Shown here in pieces: positions 1,297-58,872 of a stretch of DNA of 64,000 nucleotides. The translations under genes and the position numbers were made by a program. This stretch comes from Utricularia gibba (taxonomy: Eukaryota > Streptophyta > Magnoliopsida > Lamiales > Lentibulariaceae). The notes under the pieces are model-generated. The model did not search any database, was not told the DNA's origin, and saw only the letters and a list, made by a program, of their open reading frames with translations. Every line of letters starts with the position of its first letter. The first letter of the stretch is position 1. The DNA lies in the NCBI GenBank assembly GCA_002189035.1, contig NEEC01000002.1, forward strand, positions 3,162,001 to 3,226,000, written 5' to 3'.

Positions 1297-4200
1297 AAGT
1301 GACCCCAAAATGAAGCAAGGGACTGGAGCCAATCCGATAAGTTGAGCCCATCATCTTTAAGCTTATCTCGGCCACCTTGGGCTAGACGTTCAATGACAAC
1401 ATACTCCAAGATGTCGTATTCAAGCTGTCAAAATGCCCAAGCAAAAAATTAAGAACTCAAATCAGAGGGAAAGAACATGAATCCTTAAATTTGATCGTCA
1501 ATCAGTGATAGCATCATCATCCACAACATCAGTGTAGTAGCGATGTATAGCAACAAGAAGATTTACTATATTGAATGAATGGTCCAAGTGGAAGTTTTGT
1601 ATAAAATTTAGCCCTGTAGTTGAGTCCTCAAAGGAACAAAACAAACTTCTGGCATTACACTTCATGATATGGTCAGTGAAAAAGCACAAACACCCAGAGC
1701 ACCAATTCCTCACCTGAAAGCATTGCCAACTGGATGTTTCTATACGGGCTAATAATTTACTTCCCAGAAATCGCTACTTAGCCCACTAGTCAATAGTGTA
1801 AAGTAGAAAACAAAATTGGTAATCTCGAACCTGTGTCAAATATTTGAATGCATCGACAACTGGAGCAATCATGTCTCTGTAGGCCTCTATCTGCAGATTA
1901 CATAACCATGTGAGAATTCCAACAGAAGAACAAATGATGAGTAACAGATAAATAACAACATTACCTGATGGACAATCGTACGAAGAACTGTCATTGGATT
2001 AGCATGAGCCAACTTGGCAACCATTCTTCCAAGCTGCTTCAAGTTTTCCTTAGCAAGGCGCTTTAAAATTCTTCGTGTATCCAACTGAGATTGAAGAAAA
2101 AATAAACAAACAATAACAAAAATCCATAAAGCTTGAGAAAGAAAACCATTACCCTTGCTGTTTGCCTAGCCACCAAAATCATGGGGAAGCGTTCATCATC
2201 CTTTTCCCATTCACCATATAAACGATACCGCACCTAACACAATATACAATTCATAATTCAGCTACAAAATATACATAACGAAGCAACCATATTTGTGAAT
2301 ATTCCACCTCATAGGGTAGGAGACTCAACAGTTCCCATATTGCCTGTCCAATAGCTGGATTTGCAGGTATTAACTGCAACGAAGGCAGAAGAAAATTCCC
2401 AAGCGATTCCTCTATTCTTAATGTAGCATCCTTTAGGTGAAGGCGTGCATTTTGATTTTCATGTATGACTGATTGAGGGGCAAACAATCCATCTCCAGAG
2501 TTAACAAGATCCAAGGCACACACGTAATAGGCTCTCAGAACCCTGATTATCTAAAGAAGTGATCGCAATCAGTCATGCCACATGGAGAAGGCCAAAAAAT
2601 TACATTATATGTTAAAAAGAGAAAATCATGAAGATGCGTCACAAACAAAGATGAGTAAGAAACCTTCTGAAGCAACAAAGTGTCACGATAGAGATAAGGC
2701 CCAGCACAAGAAAGCATTTCAAAAAGTTCTTTTGGAAGATTGATGAAAGGTTTCTTTGGCAAGGTGTTGCCTGATTCCAGATCTTCAGTAGAGCTCGTGG
2801 GCAGACTGACAGTTTGGAGAACCCTTTGAGACACTAAATTATATGCTGGAAAAATTGTTTTTTCCACAAGCCTGGAAGAGGACATGGAAGTAAAGACATG
2901 AATATAATACTACATGTAGTATTGAAGGCAGGAAGCAGACGAATAATGCTGCAAAGGAAGGAGAATACACGTGAAATGAAGGATCCATCATTACCTAAAC
3001 AATCCATTGCAGATGTGAACATGCTCTATGGGATTGAGAGGTGACAGGTGATCCAACAGCTGGTTGGCATGAAGCCTGATTTCAGGACAGCTTAGGATCT
3101 AGTCCTAAAAATGCAAAGCAAATAAAGCCTACACTTGATGTACTTAACTTACCAATCATCCACATCCAGGAACCCCATAAGCAAGCCGAGAGCTTGACTA
3201 TTCTCAAGCTCTAATGACCTTTCTGTAGCAGCGGTCGTTTCAATGTCTAAGGCGGAGAAAAGGTCCACGGTTACATCACCTTGCTTATCATCATCCATGA
3301 GGTCCTTCCCAGTGGCTGCAAGATTGATTTTCCCAATCTTATTAGCCTGCACATCAGATGGGTAAGGTATCCAGGGAAAAATTTAAGTGTAATAAACTTA
3401 AGAAGATTTCAAAAAAGAAAGCCCCATTGCAGCAAATGTACCTCATCAAGTCTCTTAGCTGAAATGGTATTGTAATGCTCAAATGCGTCCTCATCTTTGG
3501 GAAGCAAATGTGAATATCTAAAAAGTTCCATCACAAAAATATGAAATGTCCTCATTCAGAAATACCAAAAAAACGCAACATTGGTAAATATATGCATCAA
3601 CCATTAGCAGAAACCATTCAATAGTCTATTAAAGACGGTATTACAAGGGGAAACAGTATGCTCTTTCTGCATGAAAAAATTCCAAAAGGAAAAAGATGCA
3701 ACCAAAGATGTTTCAGAAGGTTAAAGAAAGACAGGACAGTAAAACAAAGTGATAAGAATTACTCTATGCAGTAACAAAGCTTGAAAAACAAGAAAACACG
3801 AGAAAAAAAGAGTAGTAACTATATGGCAACTAAAAAATATTGATTATTTCCATGGCCAACTCACATGCTATCTATGTCAATAAATTCTTTCTTAATCAAC
3901 AATGCTGTGAGTTGATACAATCCAGCTGGAGCATGAGTCTGAATTTCTGAACGCTGATAATACTGAAACTTGAATCCAAGAATCTGAGCTGCATGAGACT
4001 ACATACAGCAAAAAGTGTTCATGAGCACCAGCACTGGACCTTAACAATAAAAAAAGGCTGCAGTACTACAAAGCAGAAAACAACAGATATTGTCTGTGAG
4101 AAGGTTATTGAAACGATCACACCATTACCTTAGGAAACAGTGGAATTAAGTCCAGAAAAATGCTGTTACCAAGCTGGAGCTCAAAACATTCAAGCACCTT

Positions 4201-5919
4201 CAGAACAGATGAATTAGTCAGTATGTACATGACATATTTGAACTCCACTCTGCATCAAAGATTGAATAAATAGAATACACATGATTGCAAAACAAGAAAA
4301 TGCTTACAATGTCAAAAACGCGATTTGGATCTAGATCAAAGTGACCAATCAACGACTGCCAAAAATACAAAAACTTAGCAAACAGGATAATGCACAAATA
4401 TGGCACAAATCCAACTTGTTTGAACCTTAACAATGCCAATGGTGGCACTTGAGGCATTTTTATTTGTCGCTTCAGGAACTTGGCAAAGAAGGGTTACCTG
4501 CATGAGAAGACTCACCCGTATTAGGGCAGTGGGTAAAGCAAGTCAGAAGTTTATATCTAGAAGATTCCCCATATCCATGGACAAGCGCACTCACAAAGCA
4601 TGGACGTTCACGTGTCCTTTTGCAATCTTTATTTCTTTCATAAAAATTAAAAGTTTAACAAACATACTGACCAAATCCAAAGTAATCAACACCAATGCAT
4701 TACTATTAATGCTTTTTTAGTGGGAAAGGGATAAACAAAAACGACTGCATAAAGGCAAAAATACCAGCTTGGCATAGCCTTCACTTTCTTCCCGAAGCAA
4801 ATTAAATTTGGTTTGCTGATACAGAAGGCGAGTGTTTACGCGAACCTGAAAGCAGAAGGATAATTTGACTACAAATTCATACAACAATGGTGTCACCAAG
4901 AAAAGAAAACATTACCTCCTTTGACTTCAAATCTGCAGCCCTAATCTTGATCATTTCACACTCCCACAAAAATTCTTCCTACACATTACGTCTCTAGATG
5001 AATAGCCAAGATTTAAAGAGTACAAAAAAGTAACATGAAATACTAACTTCACAGCGCTCTTGAAAGAATCTCAATGGGACAAGTGCTGACTCCACCAGCC
5101 ATTTTGCCTGGAATATCATCAAATAAATCAAGGTACCAAAATTAGAGTCAAACAGATGGTTGATCAGATGTGTTATTTTTATCAATTCAAAAAAAAAATC
5201 ATTTTAAAAATCAAAACAGTTGAACACAAGATAGTGTGACATCAAACTGATTCTTGAAGCTGCAACAACGCCTCACACAAGAAGTTTAATAAAGACGCAT
5301 TCACTTAAAAGGCAATGCAACATAAATTACCAGCTTAACCAGGCGAGATCGATGATCACCCACGACAGCAAGCTACACGAGATGCAACGAAGTTAGAAGA
5401 ATAGAGCAGTTATCAAAATATAGAAATGCATCATCGTCTTTTTTTAATGAAACGACATGAATTCTTTATAAGAAGGATGGGGAGTTGGTGGGCACGCTTA
5501 ATAACAAATATTAGATGGATAGTCTGTTTTGAGAAACAAATAAAATAAAAGTTTCATAACAGGGAACACAGCTCACATCATGCGCCATTTGAGCAACAAC
5601 GTCCGCAAAACATGATCCCACATCCCTTCTGGACCACAGTCTAGAAACTCCGTAGCTTCCAGAGCAACCTTGCATTTCTGATACGGCATCTCCCCTCGCA
5701 CCTGTAAAAAAAACCCTAACATCACTTGAAAAAGGCCTAGAGATTGAAAGACGAATACCACAATCCCTCCAAACAACGTATTACCGTCACAAAACAGAGC
5801 TCGTAAATGAACCTCAGTACATGAGCAGGACGAGAAAATCTGAAACTCGAGTTGGAGTTCTTGAGTTCTTTAATCGAATCATCCGTCATGTAAATGCAGT
5901 GCAATGCCGGAAAAGACAT
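1297..5919 (-). CDS. THO2: THO complex subunit 2 (5' exons, partial, one frameshift)
   Basis: THO2 is the large scaffold of the nuclear THO/TREX complex, which couples transcription to mRNA export and small-RNA precursor handling. About 19 exons can be followed from the ATG at 5919 ([19 protein letters not shown]): E1 5919-5785, E2 5701-5577, then small exons near 5373, 5107, 4979, 4846, 4496, 4355, 4197, 3999, 3513, 3348, 3073, 2873, 2551, 2233, 2081, 1891 and 1424-1297. Family blocks are plain, such as [56 protein letters not shown] and [18 protein letters not shown]. They cover roughly the first 640 of about 1800 residues. Exon 2 is 125 nt where 126 is expected: the frame breaks between EFLDCGPEG and [16 protein letters not shown], at the GGG read from 5626-5624. 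The rest lies left of the window or is lost. Confidence 0.93.
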
Positions 5920-8805
5920 TTTTCTAGGACTGTGATTGACAGGAATCAGTGGTTCCTGCTGCTCTAGATGATTAGACGACGCAAGAGGATCACAGTAGAA
6001 GACTACGGGGTAGCAACAATCCGCTTCATGGTCGACGAACCTACAATCTCACTTCTAGGGTTTCCACAACGCTCGCCATAGTATCAGACTTCAGTTCCCA
6101 AATTTCCTCTCTTTTGCTCTGTGCCCACTTGTGTTTCCGGCTTGTATTTTGCATCCGTTGTAGCTTCGGGTTTCGGATCCTGCAAAAGGGCCGGTTTACG
6201 GCCCACTAAACCCCCAAAAGCCCATGAAACCCAATTTTTTATCCAATTAATGATATATGGTTGTCTCAATTTTATATTTGTCATAAATTATTTTGCTGTT
6301 AAATAGATTTTTTATGTCATTTAAAATTATTATAGTATAATCTTAATTCAGCCAAAGTGATCGCGTTTTGAAAATAACATATCAAAATCTGAATATATAT
6401 AACACATTAATCCTCATAAAATGTTATTTTGGATGACCAACACAAAATCCCATTATTACCCTTAAGGGTGTGTTTTTATTATGGAATTTAAATATAGGGT
6501 AAAATTTTCTAAGTGTCCAAGTTTAGTTTTGCATATATTCTCTCATATTAAATCTAAATCGGGGAAACTTCAAAACATGACACGTATGTTTATTGATTTG
6601 GTAATTTATATCACATGTATTTTAGAGCACCTAATTTTCTCACAAATCAAATTTATATTACAATTTATGCCATTTTTTTTTATAGAAAAACATCAAAATC
6701 AGCCATACATATTTTTCAATTTAGTAATTTATACCATACATTTTCAAAATCACGAAAATCAGAAAAATTAGAGTATATAAACCTTACAAAATGAGGAAAA
6801 AATAAATCAAATATCTTTTAAAATCAACATTCATATTGGAAAATAAATTCAAAAATCAATTTATATAAATATAATAAAGTTTCAATAGCTATACAAATTC
6901 ATTTATAGTACATATTACATATTGTTATAATAAAAAAAATAATGCTTACAAAAATCTAAAAGTAAGGATAACAAAAAAAAATATAAAAAACTGTTAGTAT
7001 TATTGTTATTATTATCACTGAAAAACAATAATTTTCATAAAAAAAATATTTATTAATATAAAAAACACTAATTAAGAAAAATAAAAAAATACAATATTAA
7101 AAAGTAAGAAATAGACAAAAAAATTATTATTTTAACGAATTTAAATTAAAAACACATGAATATATTAATTTACAAATTTAATTTGTGGTAAAATTAACTG
7201 TTAGAAAATACATGTGGCATGTTTTGCAGTTTCCCCAATCTAAATCTGATACTTATCAATTATATTGGAGTTGAACATGGGTCAGTCAACAATCAGGGAG
7301 TCAATTAACTCATCAGAGGTTGACCATTAACCTGACTGGGATATTAGTCAACTTATGTTTAATATAAATTTACTTAAGCAACAGAAAAGTATCTCACCTC
7401 AAAATCTTTTTCATTATTTTTTTCTCATTTGTTATGCTACCAGCAAAATTTGAACCAAATCCAAAAAAGATCAAATTTTGTTCAATATAAACATACAACA
7501 AAATAAAATAAAGAGTGAGAAATAAAAATAAAAACTAGGGTTCTTAAAACTCTTGTCCCAATGGGTCGTCCCCTTCCCATCAAACCATGACCTGACTTGT
7601 ACTCGTTATGCACAAATACGACTCACGGGCTGGCCTAAGTGACAACAAGTTGATCCGGAATTGCACCCACCTCTAAGTTGTATGATGTGCCTAATACTTG
7701 GAAGTAATACACTGCAAATAATATTCTAACATTTTTGTTTATTTATATTGTTTTTGTCTCTAAATTATGTTTATTTATATTTCTATTATCATGATCAAAT
7801 ATTTTCCTTGTTTCCTTGAATAATGTTATATGGTTTTATTGTTAGAATATTTTCTTTTTTTCCTATCCAAATTGCTACTGATTATGTAACAATCATATAC
7901 TTATTAGTTCATTTAGTTCTGTTCTATGGTTGAAGTAATACATGTGTGATATATAGTTGGTATATGCATCGTGTTTTTTGAATTCAATTCTATTTTTTTT
8001 ATAATTCATGAAATAAAACAAAAATTTATATATCTTATGTTCCATATGCTTTTAATGTTCATTATCTGTTATACCTTTTTTTTTTTTTGCACAGCTCTTC
8101 AAAATTTATTAAATTGAGATATAAACTCTTTCCATCATCAACGATGGATTGTCCAACTGGATAATTTACAGAAAATTGTGATGGAGAATCGATGAAGAAG
8201 CAAATGACGTTTGGAATGATAGCCATTATTTGATGCTAACCATCATGAATAATTATATTGGATCCTTTAATCTCCTCGCATAATATTTCCGTATCAATGA
8301 GCAAGCTGCCTATTAAGAGGGAAAAAAAAAGAATTTATTAATAATGCGTACTATGCATTACAATTGAAAAAATTAACTGGAATAGACTCGTTCATAATTG
8401 TAGAAGAAAATCAAATATATATTTAAAATAACCTACGAGAATAGAATTAATTTTGGTAAAATAAAATTAGTTTTCAAACGTATAATTGCTCTAATTACTA
8501 CAATCAATTTTCACCTTGTATTAGAGATGTTAAAATTGTTTGTGCCACAGATGCCATCAAATCATCTACTGTTTACTGCCTAACCTCTCAAAATGTGGCA
8601 AAGTGAATTACGAAAATGTTAACACATGAGAGCGAGGCATTCGATTACGGAATGAAAGTTGCCTGAATCACTCAACCCGACTCATCCTCCTCTCCGGAAT
8701 AAAAAAGTGGAAACTCTAACTCTGTCTCAAAGTGGAAACTTCCGATCTCATCTCATTTCCCGCGCGTCTCGGTCACCCTCTCCTCGACTACCTCTTTCAC
8801 TCCTC
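5920..8805. other. Gene-free AT-rich intergenic stretch
   Basis: The first 200 bases or so are the probable 5' leader and promoter of THO2. From about 6.25 kb the sequence becomes very AT-rich, full of stop codons and poly-A/T runs on both strands. No domain is recognised in any frame. The part just left of 8805 would hold the 3' UTR of the neighbouring ALKBH10B-like gene. I see nothing else supportable here. Confidence 0.7.
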
Positions 8806-35413: not shown

Positions 35414-35948
35414 TGGGAGCAGCTTCTGGAAACCAGTAAATAAAGCAGGGAAAAGGAAAGGATTGGAGAAGCTCCAACGGATATACGGAGGAACAACGCT
35501 CGGGGTCGGGACTTCCGTTGCGGAATCCCGAGCCTACACCACGGATATGGCCTGACCTCTCGTACCAAGTTCTCAAATCTTCGAATGAGAAAAAGTAAAG
35601 TACAATAAAACCATAAAACCTAAGTGGGTGTGCTTCGGTTTCTTTCTTTTCTTTTTTCTTTTTTTTTAAATAATATAATATATTAATTTCCATTTCTGAA
35701 ATTTTATTTTACACATCAAATACTTATTTAAAAAAAAAAAAAGAAGAAGAAGAGCCGCTTCGAAGCCGGCAGCCATCGTCGGAGTTTACGAGGTTACAGA
35801 CTGCCGCGCCACAACCTCCGATCTCAACCGTTGTAAATCGAACGCCTATATCATCGACAAATAGTGGTGATCGCTTGGGAAAGCCACCAATTCGGTGGAT
35901 ACCCCGATAACCGAACTACCTTCTGTTCCAACGAACACAAGGGTAAAT
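35414..35948. promoter_or_regulatory. Divergent intergenic promoter region
   Basis: 535 bases separate the start codons of the zinc-ribbon gene (minus) and the lipoyl synthase gene (plus). The middle (35645-35745) is AT-rich with poly-T and poly-A runs; both sides are GC-richer, as expected for the two leaders. Shared control is possible but not shown by any motif. Confidence 0.5.
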
Positions 35949-37558
35949 ATGTTCCACCATTCCATTCCCAAGGTATCCGATTCTGCATTTTCTGCATTCG
36001 CGTCGCTGCACGGTCAGGAAAGAGGTCCAATTTCCGTTCGCTTTGGTATCCGCTGTGAAATCCACCTGGAACTAGATCCAATTGAAGGAAAAAGGCGTAG
36101 CATGGGGCTCCACACTGGTCGGGATCCCGATATGAGGAAGCCTGGATGGCTACGGCAGAAGGCGCCTCAGGGGGAGAAGTATGAGGAGGTGAAGGAGTCA
36201 ATCTCTAGACTCAAACTCAACACAGTTTGCGAGGAAGCCCAGTGCCCCAACATCGGAGAGTGCTGGAACGGTGGCGCCGATGGTATCGCCACGGCCACAA
36301 TCATGTTGCTTGGGGATACTTGCACAAGGGGATGCAGATTTTGCGCAGTGAAGACAAGTAGGAACCCTGCGCCTCCTGATCCCATGGAGCCGTACAGCAC
36401 TGCTCAGGCCATTGCGAGCTGGGGGTACTTGTTCTACTGTTCTTTATTTACTAGTGAAGAAGTTCATAATAGTGATTTCTGCATTCTTTTTTCATACTAC
36501 AGTGTGGATTACATCGTACTAACTAGCGTTGATCGGGATGATCTTCCTGATGGTGGAAGCAGTCATTTTGCAGAAACAGTCAAAGCTAGTAAGGTTTGGA
36601 TTCAAGATACTCCATTTTGGTTCACATTCGTTGAGTTTTCTCTGTCTCTTTGCCACTGGGGATCTTTAAACTCATGAACCATTTGGACATTTCATTTTGC
36701 TAGAGTCTCAAACCTGATCTTATGATTGAGTGCTTGACTTCGGATTTCCGAGGGGATTTGAATGCTGTGGACACTCTGGTTCATTCTGGGCTGGATGTAT
36801 TTGCTCATAACGTTGAAACGGTGAAACGACTGCAGCGGATTGTCAGGGATCCCAGAGCTGGGTGAGAACCTTTTCATTAGTTCATCCAACCGTGTTTGAA
36901 AGCCATTTCACACGATATAGTAGAAGGTTCGATTGTAATTTGCTACTGTGGTTAATGCTGCCAGCTACGACCAAAGTCTAGCGGTGCTGAAGCATGCAAA
37001 GCTGAGCAAGGAAGGAATGATAACAAAATCATCCATAATGCTGGGACTTGGCGAAAAGGATGATGAAATAAAGGAAGCCATGGCCGATTTGAGGGCTATT
37101 GATGTCGATATTTTGACACTGGTCAATATTTGCAGGTGAGCCATCAAAGATCCCTTTTCATTTTCACCTGGAGTATGAATGAAACAACACGTGTACTTCA
37201 AATAGTTTGTATTATGCTTTGGCTCGCAGCCCACACCATTACATCTTACTGTCAAGGAGTATATCACCCCAGAGAAGTTTGCATTTTGGAAAGACTACGG
37301 CGAGAGCATTGGCTTCCGATACGTCGCCAGCGGACCCTTGGTAACCTGGCACTACTCTATTCATTGGACCCAATGAAACCGAATCACCCTTGCACACTGC
37401 CTTCGCAAACTTAGCATTTTTCCTACTTGGGAACAGACATTGTCGACTAGTTTCTCACCTTTGCTGTGTTTCTTTCCAAGGTTCGATCTTCTTACAGAGC
37501 TGGGGAGCTTTTTGTCAAGGCTATGGTGAAGGAGAGGGCCAGGAACTCATATTCGTGA
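35949..37558 (+). CDS. LIP1P: Lipoyl synthase, plastid-targeted type (one frameshift)
   Basis: A radical-SAM enzyme that inserts two sulfur atoms into octanoyl chains on lipoyl domains; in plastids it serves pyruvate dehydrogenase and glycine-cleavage-type complexes. Six exons: 35949-36424, 36503-36593, 36704-36861, 36965-37135, 37230-37340, 37481-37558. The auxiliary-cluster motif [12 protein letters not shown] and the radical-SAM motif CTRGCRFC are both intact, followed by [54 protein letters not shown] and [20 protein letters not shown]. The N-terminal 60 or so residues are Ser/Phe/Arg-rich, as for a transit peptide; the ATG at 35949 is the first in frame. Exon 4 ends ILTL-VNIC where the family has ILTLGQYLQ: one G is missing at 37121-37122. 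The exons total 1085 nt, one short of 1086. Confidence 0.93.
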
Positions 37559-37741: not shown

Positions 37742-38164
37742 CTAAGAATCAAGCTTTGATGTTGAAATCTCTCTGCTCATTTGGCTTTCTTCTTTTTCTA
37801 CTGAATCATTCTTCGTCTTCTTCCTCTTCTTCTTTTTTCTCTTCCCTTCGTCATCACTAACCTTCACCTCAGCTTCCAAATCCCTGCCAAGATCAGTTTT
37901 TTCTCCTCCAATTCTCGATTCGACCTCCTTCTCTAATGATTCCAGCCCCACGCCATTATCATTCTGAGAAGCTTCTCCGTCCGATTTCGCGGATCTACTC
38001 TGCAACTGGAGCAACCAACCGTACGCCTCGACGGTGCGGTTGAGGTAATTGTTCACGACGGGGGAAGTGACGTACCCCGCGGCGGCGAAGCGGGAAATCA
38101 GCTTCGAAGCGCGAGCCAGAGAGATGGGCTTGGAAGAAACTAACTCCATCCCCACCCTCTTCAT
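37742..38164 (-). CDS. Small conserved plant protein with Lys-rich tail
   Basis: A single-exon frame of 140 residues starting at an ATG at 38164. The N-terminus (MELVSSKPISLARASKLISR, then FAAAGYVTSPVVNNYLNRTV) matches a plant family of unknown function that usually begins MELVSSKPISLSKASKLLSR and ends in a basic tail. Here the tail is KRKKKKRKKTKNDSVEKEES, a likely nuclear localisation signal. It converges on the lipoyl synthase gene, 183 bases between stop codons. A second start (MELV) lies five codons in. A truncated copy is present at 41.5-41.7 kb. Confidence 0.75.
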   Translation of the reverse strand: MKRVGMELVSSKPISLARASKLISRFAAAGYVTSPVVNNYLNRTVEAYGWLLQLQSRSAKSDGEASQNDNGVGLESLEKEVESRIGGEKTDLGRDLEAEVKVSDDEGKRKKKKRKKTKNDSVEKEESQMSREISTSKLDS

Positions 38165-38363
38165 CTTCCTCAGGCCACTCCAACCGCCGCCGGAATCGCT
38201 GCAACTTCCTGCCTTTTTATTTTCGCCCTCAGAGAAAATAAACCACCTATTTCGAAATTTTTTATTGTTTTCTTTGGGCCATTACTGCAGAAACAATTTG
38301 GGCTTTTTTTTTGAATATTAGACCCCCATTACCCCAAGAAGCTCAAGGTTTTTTATGAGGAAG

Positions 38364-38921
38364 TAGAGATGAAAGTTAAAGCCAAGACCTTGGGCCGGCC
38401 CCACCCGGTCCTAAAAAACATAGGGTTAGGGCCTATACATTAATGACCCGAAAGATTATCGTACTTTCTGATCCGAAGCCCTAAGCCTTTAGGGCCGATT
38501 GGGTTTCGGGCCTTAAAGCCCGACGGGCCTAGGGCCAATTTAAAAATAGAATTTTTATATATAATAATTATAATTATTTTTAATTTTGAATAATTTAAAT
38601 TCATTATATATATACTATTTTATTTTAAATATAAATAATATGAATTAATAATCTACATACTATTTTAATTTTTTTTCTATAAATTATTTAAATAATATTA
38701 AAATGTATATTAATGTTTAATAATTTTTTAAACTTTTTTATTTATTATATGGTAAACCTGTGGGCCGGGTAAGACCAGCCCGGCACTATGAATAATCGGG
38801 CTAGGGCCACCTTAATCTTATTTTTATGTGATTGGGCTTTAGCCCGGCCTTAGCCCGAAACTTGATGAGGCCCTCTGAAATAGGGTCGGGCCAGCCCCGC
38901 CCGGCCCAACTTTCATCTCTA
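38364..38921. mobile_element. hAT-type MITE, 558 bp, with 8-bp target duplication
   Basis: Perfect 14-bp terminal inverted repeats (TAGAGATGAAAGTT at 38364; AACTTTCATCTCTA ending 38921) are flanked by the 8-bp direct repeat TGAGGAAG (38356-38363 and 38922-38929). GGGCC/GGCCC-rich subterminal sequence surrounds an AT-rich middle. There is no coding capacity. An 8-bp duplication and TA-type termini are typical of hAT elements. The duplicated locus at 41.5-41.9 kb lacks the insertion, giving an empty-site comparison. Confidence 0.92.
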
Positions 38922-38995
38922 TGAGGAAGTTTTCCAACAACTTCACTCACGTATGGAGCTTCTTCTTCGGGTAATTCATCATTCAAATGCTCTAT

Positions 38996-41512: not shown

Positions 41513-41942
41513 ATCCACAACTAGAGCAATGCACCGTGCGCCTTGACGGTGCGGTTGAGGTAGTTGTTCACGACAGGGGAAGTGACGTAACCCAGCGCGG
41601 CGAAGTGTGAAATCAGATTCAAAGAGCATGACAGAGAGATGGGCTTCGAAGAAACCAACTCCATCGCCACCCTCTTCATCTTCTGTAGGCAACTCCAACC
41701 CCCACCGCTGCTAGAATTGGTGTTGCTAGCCGCCTTTTTTAACCTTTCGAGAAAATAAATATGTTTCGAAATTGGTCTTTTTTATCATTTTCTTTTGGGC
41801 CTTTACCATAGAAATAATATGGTTTTTATTTAAATATTAGACCCGCTTAGATGCTAATACTTTTGTTTTTTAATGAAAAATTTTCCCAACAACTTTGGGC
41901 ATGCATTGAGCTTCTTCTTCGGGTACTTCATAATTCAAATGC
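41513..41942 (-). pseudogene. Truncated copy of the small Lys-rich protein gene and its upstream flank
   Basis: The minus strand from about 41683 reads MKRVAMELVSSKPISLS, then FAALGYVTSPVVNNYLNRTV, KAHGALL and a stop, against MKRVGMELVSSKPISLA in the gene at 37742-38164. The Lys-rich C-terminal half is absent. Similarity continues into the upstream flank to about 41942, matching 38200-38340 and 38922-38985, with no counterpart of the 558-bp MITE that splits the parental flank. The copy diverges by many substitutions. Its right end lies about 25 bases from the left end of the PIF/Harbinger element. Confidence 0.85.
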
Positions 41943-43733
41943 CTTGTCGAAATTCGAACAACACCTAAGGCCATGTTTGGCACACTTGTGAATGTGTTTT
42001 TAACAAGCAATTTTTAATTAGAAGTGTGTTTGATAAGAGTTGGGATGTTAACAAATATTGTTTAAATTATCGTCAATTTGAGTGTGATGGTAAACATGGG
42101 GGAAGGGGGAAGGGGAAGGGGATGTAAGTTAAGAATTATAATCATTTTTATTCTTTTTTTTACCCTTATCTAATCCTTTTTATTCCTTTTTTGCCATTGC
42201 CCTTAATAAATTTTGGATAAATGCACTCATTCCCAGATTGGGTTTGAGTTTTTCTTCAATAGTTTCTCACAATTGTAATCACTTTTCGCAATATGATTAA
42301 AACAATTTTTCTGTTTGATGAAGAATAGAAAGCCAAACTAAAAACTGCAATTTTTGGTAAAATTTGAGAATTTGTAATATTGGCTTCTTGACATGTGTTT
42401 ATGCATTGAATCATTTATTGATAATGCAATGGTTGTGTGGACATTAAGTGATGGTCATTATTTATGGTGAAAAGCTATCATTTTTGAACTATCATTCTCT
42501 TGTTACTTTTCATTTGTTTTAATTCCATTGATATATAATAAGATATTTGGTTTCATGTAGATGATTTTATTCACCTATATTTTCTGTGTTTTTTGGAAAA
42601 TATTTTTGAGATGATAGTTGTATGAATTTTCACTCCTACACGTGTCTTGACAATTTTTTTTATTTCTTGTGTACATTGGTTTTCTGATTTTTAGATCTAA
42701 CACTTGCCTTCAACCCATTTTTACAATCCCAAGTCTTTCATTGTGAAATAAAAAAAAATAGTTGATGAACAAGTTAGAGTTGTGGATGTCACTATAGCGC
42801 ATGCTATAAGAGCAATTAAATTTATATGGATGATGTCTCTGATTTATATATGGACGCAACAACAACGTCCAAGTATGAACATTGTGCGGTATTCATATAA
42901 TGAGAAAATTCCTCGCCAACTTGACTATATGAAATGTTTAATCAATGATGCAAACTCTGCATGCTTGGATGAGTTGGAGCTTACCGGAAGTGTGTTTCTG
43001 AAGTTGTATACCCTACTACAAGAAAAGATGAATCTAAGGCCAACTAAGTATGCAAATGTGCTGGAAATGGTGGCTATTTTCTTAGAAATTTAGCACGTGA
43101 TAGGAAAACAAGAACACAAAAACATGCATTCAAGAGATCAACTTGGACCATGTCAAACATTTTTATATCATGCTTACAACAGTGTTTTCATTGGGAGATG
43201 AATTGTATGTCCGAACTTGCCCAATAAATGAAGATTCAAATTCAAAATTTCATTTTTTGAGGTAGCATTTTCTTGCATCATCAACTTTATGTTTTTTTTT
43301 CCACTTGATGGCTTTTTAGACTTATTCCTTCCTTGTCAGAATTGTCTAGGTGCTCTTAATGGTTCAAACATTCCACTTCACGTAAAAGAAGTCTTGAAGT
43401 CACAATTAAGGAATTGAAAAGGCCAACTATCTGCAAATGTCCTAAGAATGTACGATGACAATATGAACTTTATTTATGTGATTTCTGGGAGAGATCTGTA
43501 TCAGATAGTATAATGTTGCAAGCAACACTTATTGGACAACCAAATACTTTCACAATAACGATAGTTAAGTTTAAATACTTTTTGGTGCATAATTTTTTTG
43601 TTACTATCTTTTAGTTGCTGCTCATTTAAGAAGTGTATAATGTTTATTTGTCTGACATTGGTTTTATGTGTAGGATGTTATTACTTGTGTGACAATAGTT
43701 ACACAAATTGCCAAGGTTTTTTTGCTCCTTATC

Positions 43734-45031
43734 TGTTAAGTGTCATTTTCTAGTTATTATTTATGTATTATTATGTATTAATTAAGTGTTAAGTCGTCCA
43801 ATTAGGAGTCTTATTATTAAGTATTTGATTTTTACTAGAAAATTTCTATTTTCCCATTTTATGTATATTTTATACATTTTTTCTCACACTTTGACCGAGG
43901 CATGTTAGGAGACTGTCAGGAGTGTTGCAAGAGTATTGCAGGTGGTCAGACTCTGAGTTTTCGTACCTTGTACGTGAGCTGGAATGATTGTGGGCGGAAC
44001 ACTGACACTGTTCAAGGCCCATGACTTGCGGCATGTCAGAGTCTGCAGCAATTATTGGGCGTAAACTTGCATGCAAAGAAAGGCTGCTGGCGCACGCAAG
44101 ACAGAAGGAATGATGGGAAGGGGACCCAAAGGAGTTAATGCACGTGGGAAATCATATAAAAGCCACTTGGAGTACTTAGTTTAGGACTTTTGAACATTTT
44201 CTCTTGTACTTAGAACTTTTAGGTTCTTCCTCCCCTCAAGGAGGAAGAACACTTAGTTTCCTTTTTGTTTCTGTTTCTATGGCCCTTTTGGACTAAAAAC
44301 CTTTAGTTTCTGGGAAGTAGATGAAGTTTCCTTCCAAGTCCTGAGCAATACACTCGGTTCTTCACTGAATTCAATTCGGATTCTGCATACTTCCACGCGT
44401 CTTGTTGCAGTCTTTCTGTAACGACTCTTAGTCAAGGTCCATGAGTAGCAGGCCACTTCTCGCGGATTTTGGTGAAGATCAAGGTGAAGACCACCAACTC
44501 CAACCCTGCTGGTTCGAGGGAAGTAGCAGATTGTTTGTGGCCTAGGTATCGCGACAGTGGACAGGTTGTGACCTCGGACCTGCCACTGGCCATTGGCAAC
44601 AGCTGGGCACACGCGCACAATTCGGTTTTGAAGGCAATCCTCTTGTCTTTCGAATCGTCCAAGGGGGAATCACATGAGACTATTCCTGTGACTCCTTGTC
44701 AATCAGAGTGTAAGGGAGAGTAAGCTATTCCTTGCTCCTATAACCAGCTATTCGGAAGAAATCAGTGAAAACCGAGGCAAGGACGGACAAAGGAAGGAGA
44801 TGGAGTCTTATTCCCAGAAAATGCGTCCTGTAGTCAAGGCCCATTACTTAGGTTGTATCTTTCATTTCTGCATCTTAAAAACCCTCTTTTACAAAACCGT
44901 GACATTTTGTAGAAGTTGCTTGCAAACACTTTTCACGAAAAACAACTCCCTGAGATCGATACTCGTACTACGTTTTCTAGTGTTTTACGTTTTAAAATAT
45001 TTAAAATTTATTGAGGAAACTACACACAACA
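43734..45031 (+). mobile_element. Solo LTR, 1298 bp, with 5-bp target duplication
   Basis: The element begins TGTTAAGTG and ends ACACAACA, so it has TG...CA termini within a TGTT/AACA inverted repeat. It is flanked by TTATC on both sides (43729-43733 and 45032-45036). It lies inside the Harbinger transposase, and the transposase reading resumes after it. A TATA-like box (CATATAAAAGCC, about 44153-44164) marks plus orientation. No internal retrotransposon domains are present, so this is best read as a solo LTR left by recombination. Superfamily cannot be assigned. Confidence 0.88.
44223..44250 (+). repeat. Perfect 11-bp hairpin inside the solo LTR
   Basis: GTTCTTCCTCC (44223-44233) and GGAGGAAGAAC (44240-44250) form a perfect inverted repeat with a six-base loop. 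It lies about 60-90 bases past the TATA-like box, so it would sit near the 5' end of the LTR transcript. Confidence 0.7.
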
Positions 45032-46266
45032 TTATCAGTGTGTTTGTTATAATTTAAAGGAGTAGGATGCAGAACCAAGGGCACCTCAAAATACAAAAGA
45101 ATACTTTAATATGCGTCATTCATGTATGAGCAATATTATTGAAAGAGTATGGGGATTTATAAAAATCAAGTAGGGCATTCTAGGAGGTGCAAACTACTAT
45201 ATTTTATGAACTTCTATGCGTATTATCATAGCTTGTGCATTGCTCTATAATTTTATTTGAAAAGAGATGCGCTGTGATCCTTTTGAAATTGAGGTATCTA
45301 TGGGATATCAGAATTTAGATGCTGAAACAACAGATGAGTTTGATGGCATACATACATTTGGAGGCATACCAAAGTGGAATGCTTGGCAGGATAATCTCAT
45401 TAATAATATGTACATGAGTTGGAATGCTATCCGTAGAGGTAGGCAGTGTCCTCTATGAATATCATAATTTGTTGCAACAAATTAATTTTTGTATGTTTTG
45501 TTTCATCTTAGATGAAGAGTAAGATTTTTTTTAAAACTATTCTACCTCTATTCAACTTCTTTATTTGTATCTCCTGATGCATATAATGAGAAGAAATAAT
45601 GAAAATCCAATAGTGAAAGCCCCTCGATGCAGGTGTGGTATGCCACCTCTATTCAATTTACTATATAGTTTAACATACTAAATATAATATAAGTATAAAA
45701 AAAATTTAAAATTAAAGTATATCACAAATATGTGTCAATTTGAGGTAGATGACTAATATATTTAAAAAGTAAGATATTTTATCAATGTCATACATCTACA
45801 AATCGCTAATCCAATCCGATTAATTGAGTAATGGGGGATAATTAGTTTAAGCTTAACTCGAGCCCCCTTCTCTCCTCTTTGTCAAAACCCAATTCAATTC
45901 ATGCATTTACTTTACCATCACCTCCCTCATCCCAATGATCAGGTGTCACACTCAATTTTATCTTAGATAAATCAACTGAGGGTTGCATTGAGATAGCAGC
46001 AAGGTAAACTCAATTTTCATAAAGTGGTCCAAATGCAAAATATTTTCCAAACATTGCAGCAAAAAAAAAAGTTACATGAAACACGCATCAACAAAATAGG
46101 CAACAAAAGTCAGGTAGCATATACTTAATAGGAAGCTTCTAATTATTTCCATCCATAATATTTTGGATCATAATTTCTTGCTATGGGCAAAAAGAGCTTA
46201 CGAAACATTCCAAAGTTGCAATATCTCGAATTATAGCTTGAATAACCTTAAGCCATTGTTAAGTAG

Positions 46267-47150
46267 TCATTGGGAGTACAGAGCCTTGCACCAAATCTGA
46301 AGCTTTTTTTTTCTTATCTTGCATCTCTTGGCTTGGTGCAAGAAGCTTGTCTTCAAGTTCAAAAATTGCAGTATTAGACTCCTTATTGAGTACTTGTAGT
46401 TCAATAATGAGATCATCAACATCATTAGAAACATTTCTTCCTTTTTTATGACCTTCGACACTTTCTGAATCATCGCCTTTGCTCTTTGAAGATGTTTGGT
46501 TTTGCTTTCGTTTACACCCATCAAAATACTTCTCTTGAGTGTCACAAGACAGTGTAGAGATTGATAGTAGATAGTTATCTTGACTAAGAAGTGGTTCAAT
46601 ATTTAGATAATTGATAGCAATATTAACTTCTTCAAGTTATTGAAAATCTTTAGTTACTCTATCTTTACCAAATATGTCAATTCAATCCTCATAGTATGAC
46701 CATGTTCTATTCCTTAATATGTTATGTAACTGCACATCATGCCGCAAAAATAGCACATATTTTCAAGATTGCCAAAATAATGATAAAATTAAATATACAT
46801 TTTTCAACTCTTCCCATAATTCTAGTGTAGCTTCTACGAACTTTGTTATATAATCAAAACCAATGCTTGACCTAGATAAAAAATCGATCTATGTATTGTA
46901 ATCTCTCTTAAATGTCCCAGATTTGGAATGCATATGAGGTTGGGTTTTTTTATCTGATTCATGATAAATTTTATAAAAATGTGTTCTAATGTTGGTAGAT
47001 AGTTTAGTTTCCAATCATTTTCAAATCTCCAACCCTTGGCTACTAACTCTTTTAAAGCAAGAATGAAGAAACGCTCTTCATGTGCACTTTAGGTGCATTG
47101 GGATCTACATTCTCCCTACTCTCACCCCTTGTAGATTTCTTCTTAGGTTT
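46267..47150 (-). pseudogene. Harbinger-associated Myb/SANT-like protein, decayed
   Basis: The minus strand has LRNRTWSYYED then IDIFGKDRVT, matching the end of the Myb/SANT-like domain partner of plant Harbinger transposases (family: 'RNKPFPHYDDLCVIFGKDRATG'). It is followed by FDGCKRKQNQTSSKSKGDDS and a coiled-coil-like Glu/Leu-rich segment (ELQVLNKESNTAIFELEDKL). Frame breaks and stops are present upstream. The partner protein is known in this superfamily to bind the termini and assist the transposase. Its orientation here, convergent with the transposase, agrees with both belonging to one element. Confidence 0.65.
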
Positions 47151-48559
47151 GTTTATTTCTATTCCTTTTTCGCTGCTTCACTATGAAAGAAAGATGGAAG
47201 AATTTTTTCACACACAAATAATGCACAAATGATAAAATCACTGTAATGCATACCTTGGATGACGAGATTGAAAATTGAACAATTTTGGATCAACATGAAG
47301 GGTTTAGTGTGTTTATATTCTAATTGAATGTTCATTGTCATTTTACTGTGTGTGACTTGATTGATACTTACTTCTACTTTCCACCCACCAAAATCAATGG
47401 GAGTAAAATTGAGATTTTAGTATACATTATCATAATTTAACAACACTCTACTAAACACATTCACAAAAAATAAAGTGTCTTACCAAACATGTGTTTATAC
47501 AAATAATGGGAAAAAATACGTTTTGATGTTAACGTTTTAAAGATTGCTTATAATTAGATGCACATGCTTTTTAAAATAGTTTTGTGGTACAAACGTTTCC
47601 GTTTTTATTCAAATTCAATACAAACGTTTTCAAAATATATCATTTTGGTACAAACGTTAAATATTATATTATTTTTCAAATATCAACATTTTTTAAACCA
47701 TTGTTTAAATACATATGTTGTTTAAAAAAGCTACAAAACAATACAATTGTTTTTTCACACATACTTTTTTATACATGCATTTATTGTAAATTATGATTTT
47801 GACCAAAATATATTAAAAATAATTAATATATTATAATATATAATAAAAATTAATAAAAAAAATATAATTTATATGTATTTCAAATTTTCATGTTTTCTAA
47901 ATCGTTAATTTAATTTACTTCATTATGTGAATTTGATTATTATATTATATTCATATTTATAAGTTTTTCAAAATTTACAACAATATCCGAAAACTTTTTC
48001 TAATAATTAAAAAATATCTAAATAATATATTAATATTATAAGTAATATAATTGTAAATATCTATTCCATTATTTAATAATTTGAATCCATCATAATAAAC
48101 TTAGTGTATTTTAAGTTGATTAATCACTTTTTTATAAAATGATACATGACATCAATTAAATGTTCCTATTGATTTGGATAGAATGAAAACTAAATATTAG
48201 ATAATTAAACATTTTTTGGAATTATCGAAATGTTTAAATATCATGTTATCCATCAAAGTAAACTAAACGATAAGCATGTCAATCAAAAGAAACAACGATA
48301 TAGCTATTGAAGTTTGGAAATCACCTACGTCAAACTAACCAGTTCATCCCCAAATGCTATACGTATTTGATTTCAGGGGAATCGCCGACGTCCACCCATC
48401 ATCACATTTGGCAATCCACATGTTGGAGCGAACTGTAATACATCATAACTCGTATACAACTTCTTGTAAGCTACAAAATGACAAAGTTAGTAGTATTCCA
48501 CTTATTGTATTTAACAACTTTGAATGATTAGAGGCTTAAAAATGATGGATACTCAGAAG

Positions 48560-49450
48560 GAAAGAAAACTGGTGGTGCATTCTGCATGAGGAGCATCACC
48601 GAATATAAAGCATATAACCCACATTCAGTTGGTCCAGTTTGTAGTGGAACCTATAAAAAGAATAACTTTAAAAATCAATTTGCTATAAGTGTTTGTACTA
48701 TGCTATTTATTGAGGTTGCATTGTGTGTACCTCATGAAAGCGAATATGCATAGAATCCAACTCATTAACATCGAAAGAAGGTGCCGCATACCCTAGCATG
48801 TATTTCAGACACCTACACAAGTAAAGTAGTGATTTAATCATAGCTAATTTATTGATTAATGTAGTATAATAATTTCTAGTACCTATACAAATCTTCTTCC
48901 GCTGGACATAATGCATCTCCTGCACTCAAAGAATCTAAGACAAGGATCATTCTATTGCGAGCATCTCCAAAGTTACAGCATACCGTCACCACCCAATGAC
49001 CTCTAGTTGTAGAACATAACAAGTTAAACACATTGTATATAATATTCAAATATAAAGCAAAGTGTAGCTTAACGATAAACAATAGGCCACACCATGTATG
49101 GGCAAGTAAGGAAGGCTGGTCGATGGGGAAATATTCTACGAACTCTCTCCTCATTATCAATCCACTCATTGAAATATAGAAGGTCAATGAAATAAAAAAT
49201 ATCTAGTCGCTCTTCTGGAATCTCAACTCTAATATGACGTAACACTTCTGTAAAATCAATCATTAAGAATTCCATACTTACGAAAGCTAGGAAGATGCTT
49301 CTTCTTCTTGCAATCCTTCGTCTTTTGTTTTGATACACCATCGTTCACAATAGTAGAATTTTCAGACGAAAGAATGACATTTTGGACATTGAAAAACCAC
49401 TGTCCTGCCATTGTAGGGGGGTGAGAACTTTCCCCACTCAAAGTCTTTCT
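48560..49450 (-). pseudogene. Ulp1-like (C48) cysteine protease of the MULE
   Basis: Exon-like blocks in order on the minus strand: an N-terminal spacer, then TTRGHWVVTVCCNF and MILVLDSLSAGDAL (about 48990-48890), CLKYMLGYAAPSFDVNELDS (about 48814-48731), and VPLQTGPTECGLYALYSVML (about 48656-48560). These supply the catalytic His (GHW), Asp (VLDSL) and Cys (TECG) of SUMO-protease-type enzymes, so the triad is visible even though the flanking gene structure is uncertain. Upstream frames contain stops, so I call it a probable pseudogene. It might still be read if introns remove the breaks. Confidence 0.7.
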
Positions 49451-49756
49451 CTTGTTTCACTTGTGGACTCTGATTTCAACAAACTAAACACATGAGCTCA
49501 AGGATGAAACAACGATTAAAAAAATCATACCTTTTCATCTTTGTTTGGCATGTCTGTATTTCCCTTGGGAGTAGCTGAATTTTGGGGTTGATCAGAGGTG
49601 ACCTTTGGCTCTGTTACTGTGGATGGTTCTTGTGTTCCTTGCTCATTTTCTTCATTTTTTCCACAACCTTCCTTTTTCTATAATAAGGAAACAATAGATC
49701 TTGATAACAAATAATACCACACCATATGGAACAAACCTATGATCCAATATAGTAGA

Positions 49757-50870
49757 CTACCTTTTTTTTTTGGAGTTCAGCTCACATGTCCGTGCATTGT
49801 GCCCTGTGTATCCACATGCTCGACAAAATTGTAATTGTCTTGTTCCAGCTTTCTTTTGTTTCCTATGAGGCGATTGTTTTTCATAAGGTGGCCTTTTTCG
49901 ATGCTTCTTGGGTCTACCACAAGGTGTCGTATGAAATATCGGAGGTAGTATGTTGCTCTTGTCCAACATTGACCATTCCTTACTATCCGGCATACCTACC
50001 AAACAAAAGTTAAAAAAGTGAAGACAATAATTAACAACAAAAACATTTTTCATATGATCCTCTGTAATACCCAAATCAACCTTAAGAAGGCTTAAAAACC
50101 ACATCCATGTGTCCTCACTCTCAGTATCCGCAACTGCATATGCTAGTGGTAAAATGTGTTGATCAACATCAAATGTGCATGCACTCAAAATTTGACCACC
50201 CTCTCTACCTTTAACATGACAACCATCAACACCAACAAATGGTCGACAATGACTCCAACCCGTTTTACAGGCATCCAAACAAATGTAGAGTTTTTCAAAT
50301 CGTCGATAAGTATTGCTGATGTTTGGAGGTGAGAGAACTAGGTCAATAGTAGTTCCAGGATTGGATAGAACTAATTGTGCACAATACCGATCAATCATCG
50401 AATACTCTGTTGCTAGCTTTCCATCACTATCTCCCAATACCTTCTTCCGTGCCACATGTGCTTGCATAGGATCCACCCACATGGATGTTGTTAAGTTGAT
50501 GTGATGCCTAAAATCACGTGTGGTGATGTCTGGCTCACCTAATAACTTATCCTCAAAGAGTCTCACTAGATACTTGGGTTTTAAAAACTTATTTTCAGTC
50601 AACTCCCTGTCACATGAACTACAGTGCTCACTATGATACTTAGACATTTGCCAATCTCGATTTGGACGGGGACCTGAGATGGTTACACCTCAACTACACC
50701 TTTCGTCCCGACCCCCTTCACACACAACACAGATGTATCTGTTGTCATTCCTCTTAAATTTCCACTGAATTCGTTCCTGAATACAATAAGCAACGATGGC
50801 ATCCCGTGCTGCTATTTTGCTACTAAATAATATTCCTTCCCTACATCGTAATAAAAAGACTTTTATGAAT
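49757..50870 (-). pseudogene. MuDR-type MULE transposase with CCHC knuckle, internally deleted
   Basis: The open frame from the ATG at 50647 reads SKYHSEHCSSCDRELTENKF, FRHHINLTTSMWVDPMQAHV, YICLDACKTGWSHCRPFVGV, DGCHVKGREGGQILSACTFD and VADTESEDTWMWFLSLLKVD. This is the MULE core with the first catalytic Asp (VDGCHVKG). It then jumps to SNILPPIFHTTPCGRPKKHR and a zinc knuckle CRACGYTGHNARTC. The third catalytic residue and the SWIM region expected between them are missing, so there is an internal deletion. Upstream (to about 50870) the N-terminal MuDR domain continues but holds an in-frame TGA near 50690. Confidence 0.82.
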
Positions 50871-52093
50871 AATAAATAGAAACCCCAGATAAATACACAT
50901 AGGAATCAACTCATACGCATTATAAGTAATATTCACAATAATTATAAACATAACATATACCAATTACATCTAAAAATTAGATGCAAAGAATTATTGATAC
51001 TCAAAGAAATAATTAGAGATTAACCTCTAACTATTATTAATATAAAAATAGTATAAGATTTACCTAAGATTTAATCCTTTTCATCCTTTTTTCGAGTTAT
51101 AATATATCATTTCTTCATCCTCATGATCATATAACTCAATGTCTTGAGTGGCAGCCTCATGTGCTTGAAGTATGCAATCTTCCTTCCACTCAATTTTAGA
51201 CTATCGGTTCAACATTGAACGAGCACGGAGGTTGCAACCCACTAGATTCATATTGAAACTCCTCCTCCGAATAAATGTATGATTCCGTAGTATCCGAATC
51301 ACTCATGGTTAGAACCTGTGGCACCAAAACAATTGAAAAGCTATAACAAATTAAATCGATACGATTCTACATCTGTCTAATAAACTTACGATTCAAAGAA
51401 TAATGATATAAGAAGATGAATCTAAAATTACCAGCAATAAAACCCAGAATCTGAGAACACCGACTCAGAGTCAAGAGAGCGATGGGCTACTAAACAAGGA
51501 CGATTGTGATGGGTCAAGAGATCGACGGGTCAACAATCACCGCTTGTGATGGATCGTGATGGCTAACAAAAATCAGAAGATTTCATCATGGTGACTAACA
51601 ATAACTGAACCCTAATTATATTACATTTCTTAATTTGGGAATGGGCCAGCTAAATATATGTACTGAAATAAAAGCCCATTAGTAAATGTTTGTTCTCATA
51701 ATGTAGGTGTTAAAAGGTATTTAAAAGATAAATTACAAATATACGTATCAAAAAAAATTTCAAAAAAACGTTGATATTGAAGATATATTATTTTTCAAAA
51801 TATTAGTTTCAAAATAAAAATTTTGAAAATGTTCGTACATATAATCTATAAAATTAAACGTATATACCAAAAAATAAATTATACAAACGTTAGTATAAAA
51901 TTGTATGTTTTTTTTCAAACGTTTGTATTGAAATAAAACGTAGCCCTACAAATAATTGAATAAATGTTACACATAACAATAATAATCTAAACAATGGAAA
52001 AATTAAATAACACAACCAAACATGACCTAATAGACAGTGTATAGACACACAGCTTGGAGACATTGGAAACGTTGTCTCCACCGCAGTTTCATA

Positions 52094-56490: not shown

Positions 56491-56760
56491 TGCTGCTTTT
56501 GCTAATTTACTTTTGGCCCCAGCATCTCACTGTATTTCAATGGCCTGATTCTTTGTACAGTAGTTGCTAATAGATCTGGAGATTTCGGATGATTGAAAGA
56601 CGAAGAACGCTTTGATCTTGGCTGCTGCTTTCTGGTGACTGGCGTACTTCAGATCTGGAGATTTTGGCTGATTGAAAGATGAACAGTGCTCTATATCTTG
56701 GCTGCTGCTTTCTGATGACTTAGTAACTTTACTTCAGGGTCTTCTTTACTGAATTTTGCA

Positions 56761-58872
56761 ATGGTTGGTGGTATAACGCAATCAGGATATACACATTTCT
56801 TCTTGTTGGTTACCTTAGTTTTACTCTTGAGTGAACTCCCAGGGATAAGATCAGGAGATGGTGAAGCTCTTGCAGCTTTGCAAGTTTCCATTGATCCTCT
56901 GGGCCGTCTTGGATGGGGAAGAGGAAATGGTTTCTGCCAATGGGAAGGTGTGAAGGAATGCATAAACGGGAGGGTCACTAAGCTTGTGGTAGAAAATCTG
57001 AACCTGAGTGGCGCAATTGGAGAAGAAAGCCTGAATCAGTTGGATCAGCTAAGGGTGCTGAGCTTCAAGGGAAACTTGCTTTCTGGGCCAATTCCTCAAC
57101 TTCATGGCCTTGTCAATCTCAAGGCTCTTTTCCTTAACAACAACAGACTCTCAGGTGGAATCCCTTCAAGTCTCTCGCGGTTGCATAGGTTGAAAGTGAT
57201 CATTCTGTTCGGTAACCGGATATCAGGAGGCATTCCACAGTCACTAACTGGCTTGAGCAGACTCTATGTGGTGTATTTGCAAGATAATCAACTTACTGGA
57301 ACTATTCCACCGTTTAACCAGACTAACTTGAGATTCTTTAACGTGTCGAATAATGCACTCTCTGGTAGTATCCCTGTGACTGCTGCATTGAGCAAGTTCA
57401 ACGAGTCTTCTTTCATTGGCAATGTGGCTTTATGCGGTGAACAAGTTGCTATATCGTGTGCTCTTGCTTTATCTCCTAGTCCATCTTCGTTTACTCCTCC
57501 TCCCGCGGCAAGTAGCAGCCATCATAACCAGAAAATGAGGCTCATATTAATAGTTGTTCCAAGCATTGTTGGACTCTGCCTGTTATGCCTCTTAATAACA
57601 TTTGTGATGAGATTCTTGAGGAGGAGAAGTAAGAAGCCTGAGGTTGTGAATAAAGCATCTGAAGAAAGGGAAGATGGGGGTGCAGCTAGCGGTGGCAATG
57701 ACAAAGGCGGCGGCCATGATACTGGAAACAGAGGAGAGTTTTCTTGGGACCATGGAGGGGATGGGCTCGGGAGCTTGGTTTTTCTTGGACCAGGGGATCA
57801 GCAAATGAACTACAGCTTGGAAGATCTTCTGAAGGCTTCGGCTGAGACATTGGGACGGGGTACAGTAGGAAGCACTTACAAGGCGGTGATGGAATCGGGT
57901 TACATTGTTACAGTCAAGAGGCTAAAGGAAGCTGGATATCCAGCAATGGAGGTTTTCAGAAGACATGTTGAGGTTCTGGGAAGACTTAGACATCCAAATT
58001 TGGTTCCACTCAGAGCTTATTTCCAAGCAAAAGAAGAGCGCTTACTTGTCTATGATTACTTTCCAAATGGCAGCCTCTTCTCCCTCCTCCATGGTAAGAA
58101 TCCCCTTGATACTTACAGTTTCTATTATCTCTGATAGAATAGGTGCATTTGGCTTCCATGGTGAAGTTCTTGTTCCAAACTCGATGCAAGTTTCATCATA
58201 TTTTTTGCAGGGTCAAGAGCAGCTGGAGGCTCAAAGCCTCTTCACTGGACTTCATGCCTAAAAATAGCAGAGGACTTGGCAGCAGGGCTGGTTTGCATCC
58301 ATCAGACTCCAGGCCTGGCTCATGGGAATCTCAAGTCTAGCAATGTTCTGCTGGGACCTGAGTTCGAGTCATGCATTACGGACTACGGGTTGAACCCATT
58401 TAGAAACCCGGGCTCCTCAGATGAGACAAGTGCATCCTCATTATTCTATCGAGCTCCTGAGTGCCGTGACAATAGAAAACCTTCAACACAGCAAGCTGAT
58501 GTCTACAGCTATGGCGTCCTTCTACTCGAGCTACTAACTGGGAAGACTCCATTTCAAGACCTTGTACAAGAACATGGCTCGGATATACCAAAATGGGTTC
58601 GGGCTGTGAGGGAGGAAGAGAGCGAGTCAGGTGAGGATCAAGCCTCAGGGAACGAGACAGCTGAGGATAAACTGAATGCTCTTTTGAACATCGCCGTATC
58701 ATGTGTATCCATAGCTCCAGCTGACCGACCCCTGATGAGGGATGTCTTGAGGATGATCAGAGAAGCAAGAGCTGAAGCACACTTGTCTTCTAATAGCAGT
58801 GATCAATCCCCTGGAAGATGGTCTGATACAGTCCAGAACTTGCCCAGGCAAGACCTGCAGTTGAGTATGTGA
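56761..58872 (+). CDS. Inactive LRR receptor-like kinase (subfamily III, At1g60630-like)
   Basis: Two exons, 56761-58093 and 58211-58872, give 664 residues, intact. A signal peptide ([17 protein letters not shown]) is followed by a short LRR region of about five repeats ([39 protein letters not shown]). Next come a membrane segment ([20 protein letters not shown]), a basic/Gly-rich juxtamembrane part, and a kinase domain from [20 protein letters not shown]. The ATP Lys is kept (VTVKRLK), but the catalytic loop is [11 protein letters not shown] in place of HRDLK..N, and the Mg-binding DFG is DYG. This is the standard state for this receptor group, classed as pseudokinases that signal through partners. 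The ATG at 56761 directly precedes the signal peptide. Confidence 0.93.

Follow-up and report, generated by a model that had tools for sequence, protein, structure and literature searches.

A solo LTR and an Ulp1-bearing MULE side by side in a degenerate PIF/Harbinger element of Utricularia gibba

Introduction

Plant genomes as a rule contain both nested insertions and solo LTRs. In a 64-kb stretch of DNA from Utricularia gibba (the window; all positions count from its first letter), such a nest spans 41966–52030, outer target duplications included, and raises the question as to which elements it contains, how they are arranged and how far the order of their arrival can be read from the sequence. 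An initial annotation proposed a three-layer nest with a solo LTR and a protease-bearing MULE inside one PIF/Harbinger element. Comparison with 100 Mb of the same genome led us to a reading that we consider nearly certain: a degenerate PIF/Harbinger element was later struck by a retrotransposon, now a solo LTR, and by an Ulp1-bearing MULE. The element identities and exact termini given at the outset were right; the decay of the Harbinger transposase and the loss of 877 bp from that of the MULE had been overlooked. Grapevine is known to have both PIF elements flanked by TAA/TTA duplications and MULEs that include Ulp1-like regions (PMC2528002).

Results and Discussion

The outer element and its ends

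The host element lies on the plus strand at 41969–52027 (10059 bp with both inserts), contains transposase fragments and is flanked by TAA duplications at 41966–41968 and 52028–52030. Within the 64-kb window there is a single copy of its 5' terminal inverted repeat GGCCATGTTTGG (41969–41980, plus strand) and a single copy of its 3' repeat CCAAACATGACC (52016–52027, minus strand). The two repeats agree at 11 of 12 positions, and the good inverted-repeat match is limited to the outer 12–13 bp. The exactness first attributed to all three elements therefore holds for the TAA, TTATC and TACAAATAAT target duplications, but not for the Harbinger terminal repeat itself, with its one mismatch in 12. 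In the 22 kb around the element, a single 12-bp pair starts with GG, has no more than one mismatch and lies between matching TAA/TTA flanks; 100 shuffles of this stretch yielded one comparable pair in total.

Relatives elsewhere in the genome place the ends at the same positions. A copy on contig C4 (L031) starts at 41968/41969 behind TTA, so that the 3-bp TWA duplication appears as TAA on both sides here and as TTA before the 5' end there. A copy on contig C402 (L030) is 88% identical over the outer 80 bp, and its similarity ends exactly at CCTAA, position 52030. The 5' third is absent from the C402 relative, so that each terminus is confirmed by a different relative.

Could the two 12-bp ends nevertheless derive from different Harbinger copies, or match by chance, with the true 3' end at an inner CCAAACATG near 47484? 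This motif is indeed present just before the MULE (47482–47495), and the match between the outer inverted repeats stops after 12–13 bp. However, the inner motif is less conserved in the C402 comparison (CCCAACATG), its extended likeness to the 5' end scores 49 and so falls within the shuffled range (maximum 52), and three further relatives (L032, L033 and L035) are collinear with the element across its 5' and 3' halves. We give almost no credence to this alternative and rejected the inner motif as a 3' end, largely because the C402 relative retains the outer one.

The uninterrupted site that the initial annotation suggested looking for was not recovered: a joined-flank search of 100 Mb of the genome yielded, besides the flanks in the window itself, just a partial duplicate of the left one (38921–38990 versus 41873–41942), which departs before the Harbinger insertion point. 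The outer insertion is accordingly read from termini and duplications. Just left of the element, a minus-strand coding fragment is locally duplicated at 77% identity (38003–38325 and 41518–41844). The block shared by 38921–38990 and 41873–41942 forms a second duplication (81%), which stops 24 bp before the left TAA.

The Harbinger genes

The transposase gene is decayed and split by the LTR within its DDE domain. The part before the LTR (42752–43733, plus strand), recognized by translation, contains frameshifts and stops and ends in YLCDNSYTNCQGFFAPY; the part after it (45037–45600, plus strand) continues with PQNTKEYFNMRHSCMSNIIERVWGFIK and contains NIIERVWGFIK, which carries the Glu. The first catalytic Asp of the DDE triad is Asn in the window copy (ALNGSN versus APDGSH in L033). 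Counting one TTATC, the frame is continuous, and the C402 relative passes uninterrupted through the same point as FLAPYRSIPLHLKEW; the claim that the transposase is rejoined across the LTR is thus borne out.

Family assignment came partly from the relatives. The post-LTR piece matches PF13359 (DDE_Tnp_4, Pfam) at positions 103–158 of 158 with E 9.4e-4, just under the gathering score, and the equivalent piece of L030 reaches E 2e-5, just below the cut-off. The first part of L033, which carries APDGSH, matches the same profile above the cut-off (positions 6–69, E 1.8e-7) and identifies a DDE_Tnp_4 (HARBI1-type) transposase. The pre-LTR piece of the window gave no Pfam match and was assigned through relatives. 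A second, degenerate gene on the minus strand (46259–47088) may be Myb/SANT-like, as judged from a weak PF12776 match of the homologous L030 frame (E 0.046); the frames of the window itself gave no Pfam match.

These features correspond to those of plant PIF/Harbinger elements such as Pifvine of grapevine (PMC2528002), with the same GG...CC terminal repeats, 3-bp TAA/TTA duplications and DDE_Tnp_4 transposase, and with a possible, weakly matched counterpart of their second, Myb/SANT-like reading frame. The net length of about 4.3 kb is close to the 5–7 kb of the grapevine families (PMC2528002). Unlike these, the window copy is degenerate, with a terminal repeat of 12–13 bp, and no intact copy was present among those inspected.

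The solo LTR

The first insert is a solo LTR of 1298 bp on the plus strand (43734–45031) with TG...CA ends and TTATC duplications at 43729–43733 and 45032–45036 (junctions TTATC|TGTTAA...ACAACA|TTATC). Its ends and its 5-bp duplications, both as first annotated, are backed by other copies of an abundant family: the genome contains 711 first-look candidates, and most of the 40 high-scoring copies that we scored are full length, at 87–95% identity. Ten of the 20 copies inspected, counting the one in the window, are solo LTRs flanked by perfect 5-bp duplications. Other copies are followed by TTTTTGGCGCCGTTGCCGGGGAG (PBS-like) or preceded by GTGTGGGGGAATA (PPT-like).

An interior piece of a likely full copy on contig C413 contains RVT_1, H2C2 and rve domains (Pfam), with RVT_1 at E 3.5e-11 and rve at E 2.5e-15 in L088. 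Reverse transcriptase and integrase domains in such a copy identify the family as Ty3/gypsy, in line with the TG...CA ends, the 5-bp duplication and an LTR common to full elements. The PBS-like TGGCGCCGTTGCCGGGGA of the family is presumably of the tRNA-Asp type. Non-chromoviruses use tRNA-Asp among other primers (PMC6317226), and a primer site of this type points to Athila/Tat. Together, PBS and PPT suggest that the family probably belongs to this non-chromovirus group, with which it shares 1.3-kb LTRs with TG...CA ends, 5-bp duplications, reverse transcriptase and integrase in full copies, and the PBS-like motif. The window copy differs in being a solo LTR.

Inside a Harbinger relative (L033, G000:C321:382000-391000), the same gypsy LTR recurs with 90% identity at another position (4666–5964), and a more distant LTR-like stretch in reverse orientation occupies 8120–8792 of that locus. 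Ty1/copia-like frames occur within or beside two relatives (L034, G000:C2:2818000-2825000, at 3422–6999, and L030 at 453–1839), which indicates that the Harbinger family is often interrupted.

The MULE

The second insert is a MULE of 4439 bp at 47508–51946, an internal-deletion copy with its genes on the minus strand. Its terminal inverted repeats are degenerate and about 220 bp long. The MULE is flanked by TACAAATAAT at 47498–47507 and 51947–51956, in agreement with the initial annotation. Both ends of ten other copies were checked: in seven the ends are the same and the 10-bp duplications perfect, and two more have near-perfect 10-bp duplications with one mismatch. Ends shared across the family and a duplication within 9–11 bp are typical of a MULE. 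Short non-autonomous derivatives of about 0.9–1.0 kb that retain both ends and lie between perfect 10-bp duplications were also seen (G000:C4:2344341-2345223, C411:609769-610666 and C213:2376743-2377752).

The transposase gene (49757–50820, minus strand) is truncated and has one stop in its N-terminal part. It matches PF10551 at profile positions 2–69 of 99 only (E 1.8e-5, 25.5 bits versus a cut-off of 27.6). Copies on C3 and C244 have 877 bp extra at 50051–50053, and one on C328 also has extra sequence there. The segment missing from the window copy encodes the C-terminal part of the transposase, including a SWIM finger (E 0.0023); CAT is shared at the deletion junction. The truncated PF10551 match and the SWIM segment of full copies mark the protein as a MULE-type transposase. 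Because this gene is truncated, the window MULE is unable to supply its own transposase.

The protease ascribed to the MULE is an Ulp1-like C48 peptidase, encoded on the minus strand at 48500–49344 with GT-AG introns. The spliced exon pieces match PF02902 with E 8.2e-8 (32.8 bits versus a cut-off of 20.7), and the catalytic His, Asp, Gln and Cys positions are all present (GHW, VLDS, Q and ECG motifs). Their retention in the window copy could speak for a captured or domesticated host protease instead of a standard family component. We regard this as extremely unlikely, since at least seven further copies of the family carry the same exons at similar positions, in several cases with stops or without a catalytic residue, and since Ulp1-like regions have been described in MULE families, for example in grapevine (PMC2528002). 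It is also very unlikely, in our estimate, that the intact catalytic residues beside a broken transposase reflect a use of the peptidase independent of transposition, such as SUMO processing that would favour the family or the host. The Ulp1/C48 MULEs of Arabidopsis (Kaonashi-type) and grapevine (Mutavine, PMC2528002) likewise carry transposase and Ulp1 in one element on the same strand; the window MULE differs from them in having degenerate terminal repeats (about 220 bp) and the 877-bp transposase deletion.

Levels and order of insertion

Subtracting the inserts, each with one copy of its duplication, restores a Harbinger element of 10059 − 1303 − 4449 = 4307 bp, consistent with the 4.3 kb first proposed. 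A relative that is continuous across both insertion points was found in the recommended genome search. The C402 relative matches 43593 to 43736 and resumes at 45052, without the LTR; it also matches through 47507 and resumes at 51947 with one 10-bp site copy (TACAAACAAT), without the MULE. A single site copy is thus present at each point. L032 and L035 are likewise collinear over the LTR site and lack the LTR. LTR and MULE belong to independent multi-copy families, each present at many other places in the genome. Neither observation that would have overturned the initial annotation was made: the Harbinger termini agree with those of relatives, and the C402 relative has neither insert at the homologous points.

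Both inserts are younger than the Harbinger element, as their position and the uninterrupted relative show. Since LTR and MULE lie side by side in one host element, the nest consists of three elements in two levels, not three layers. The claim that the order of events can be read directly therefore stands for the arrival of the Harbinger element ahead of each insert, but not for LTR versus MULE, which neither nesting nor private substitutions separate (1.46%, 19/1298, versus 1.5–1.8%, with sampling that differs between the two). Identity to the nearest copy is 95% for the MULE, 95% for the LTR and 76–88% for the Harbinger element, which fits an older Harbinger, although such gaps between families reflect family age as well as insertion age.

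Nesting alone would be compatible with a Harbinger element that picked up the MULE or the LTR as a passenger before moving to its present locus. This scenario is extremely improbable: the LTR had already broken the Harbinger transposase, a disrupted 10-kb element would need help in trans for moving, no relative has either insert at the homologous points, and the inserts look later by their identity to their own families.

We therefore favour separate arrivals in a Harbinger element already in place. An autonomous-type PIF/Harbinger entered a TAA site adjoining the duplicated gene fragment and decayed after its insertion. At later times and independently of each other, a Ty3/gypsy retrotransposon entered its transposase gene at TTATC and an Ulp1-carrying MULE entered at TACAAATAAT, 81 bp from the Harbinger 3' end. 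The retrotransposon presumably shrank to a solo LTR by LTR–LTR recombination. We infer that the complex as a whole can no longer move by means of its own proteins.

The nest is a well-preserved, fresh case of ordinary plant repeat structure. It leaves existing knowledge of plant transposons unchanged and provides a clean worked example of how relative insertion order is read from target duplications, together with exact termini for three repeat families that aid annotation of this genome.

Around the nest, translation alone points to a reading frame on the plus strand (35871–36677) whose CxxxCxxC-type motifs resemble those of lipoyl synthase and to a gene resembling LRR receptor kinases (56719–58872), both of which look like ordinary host genes.
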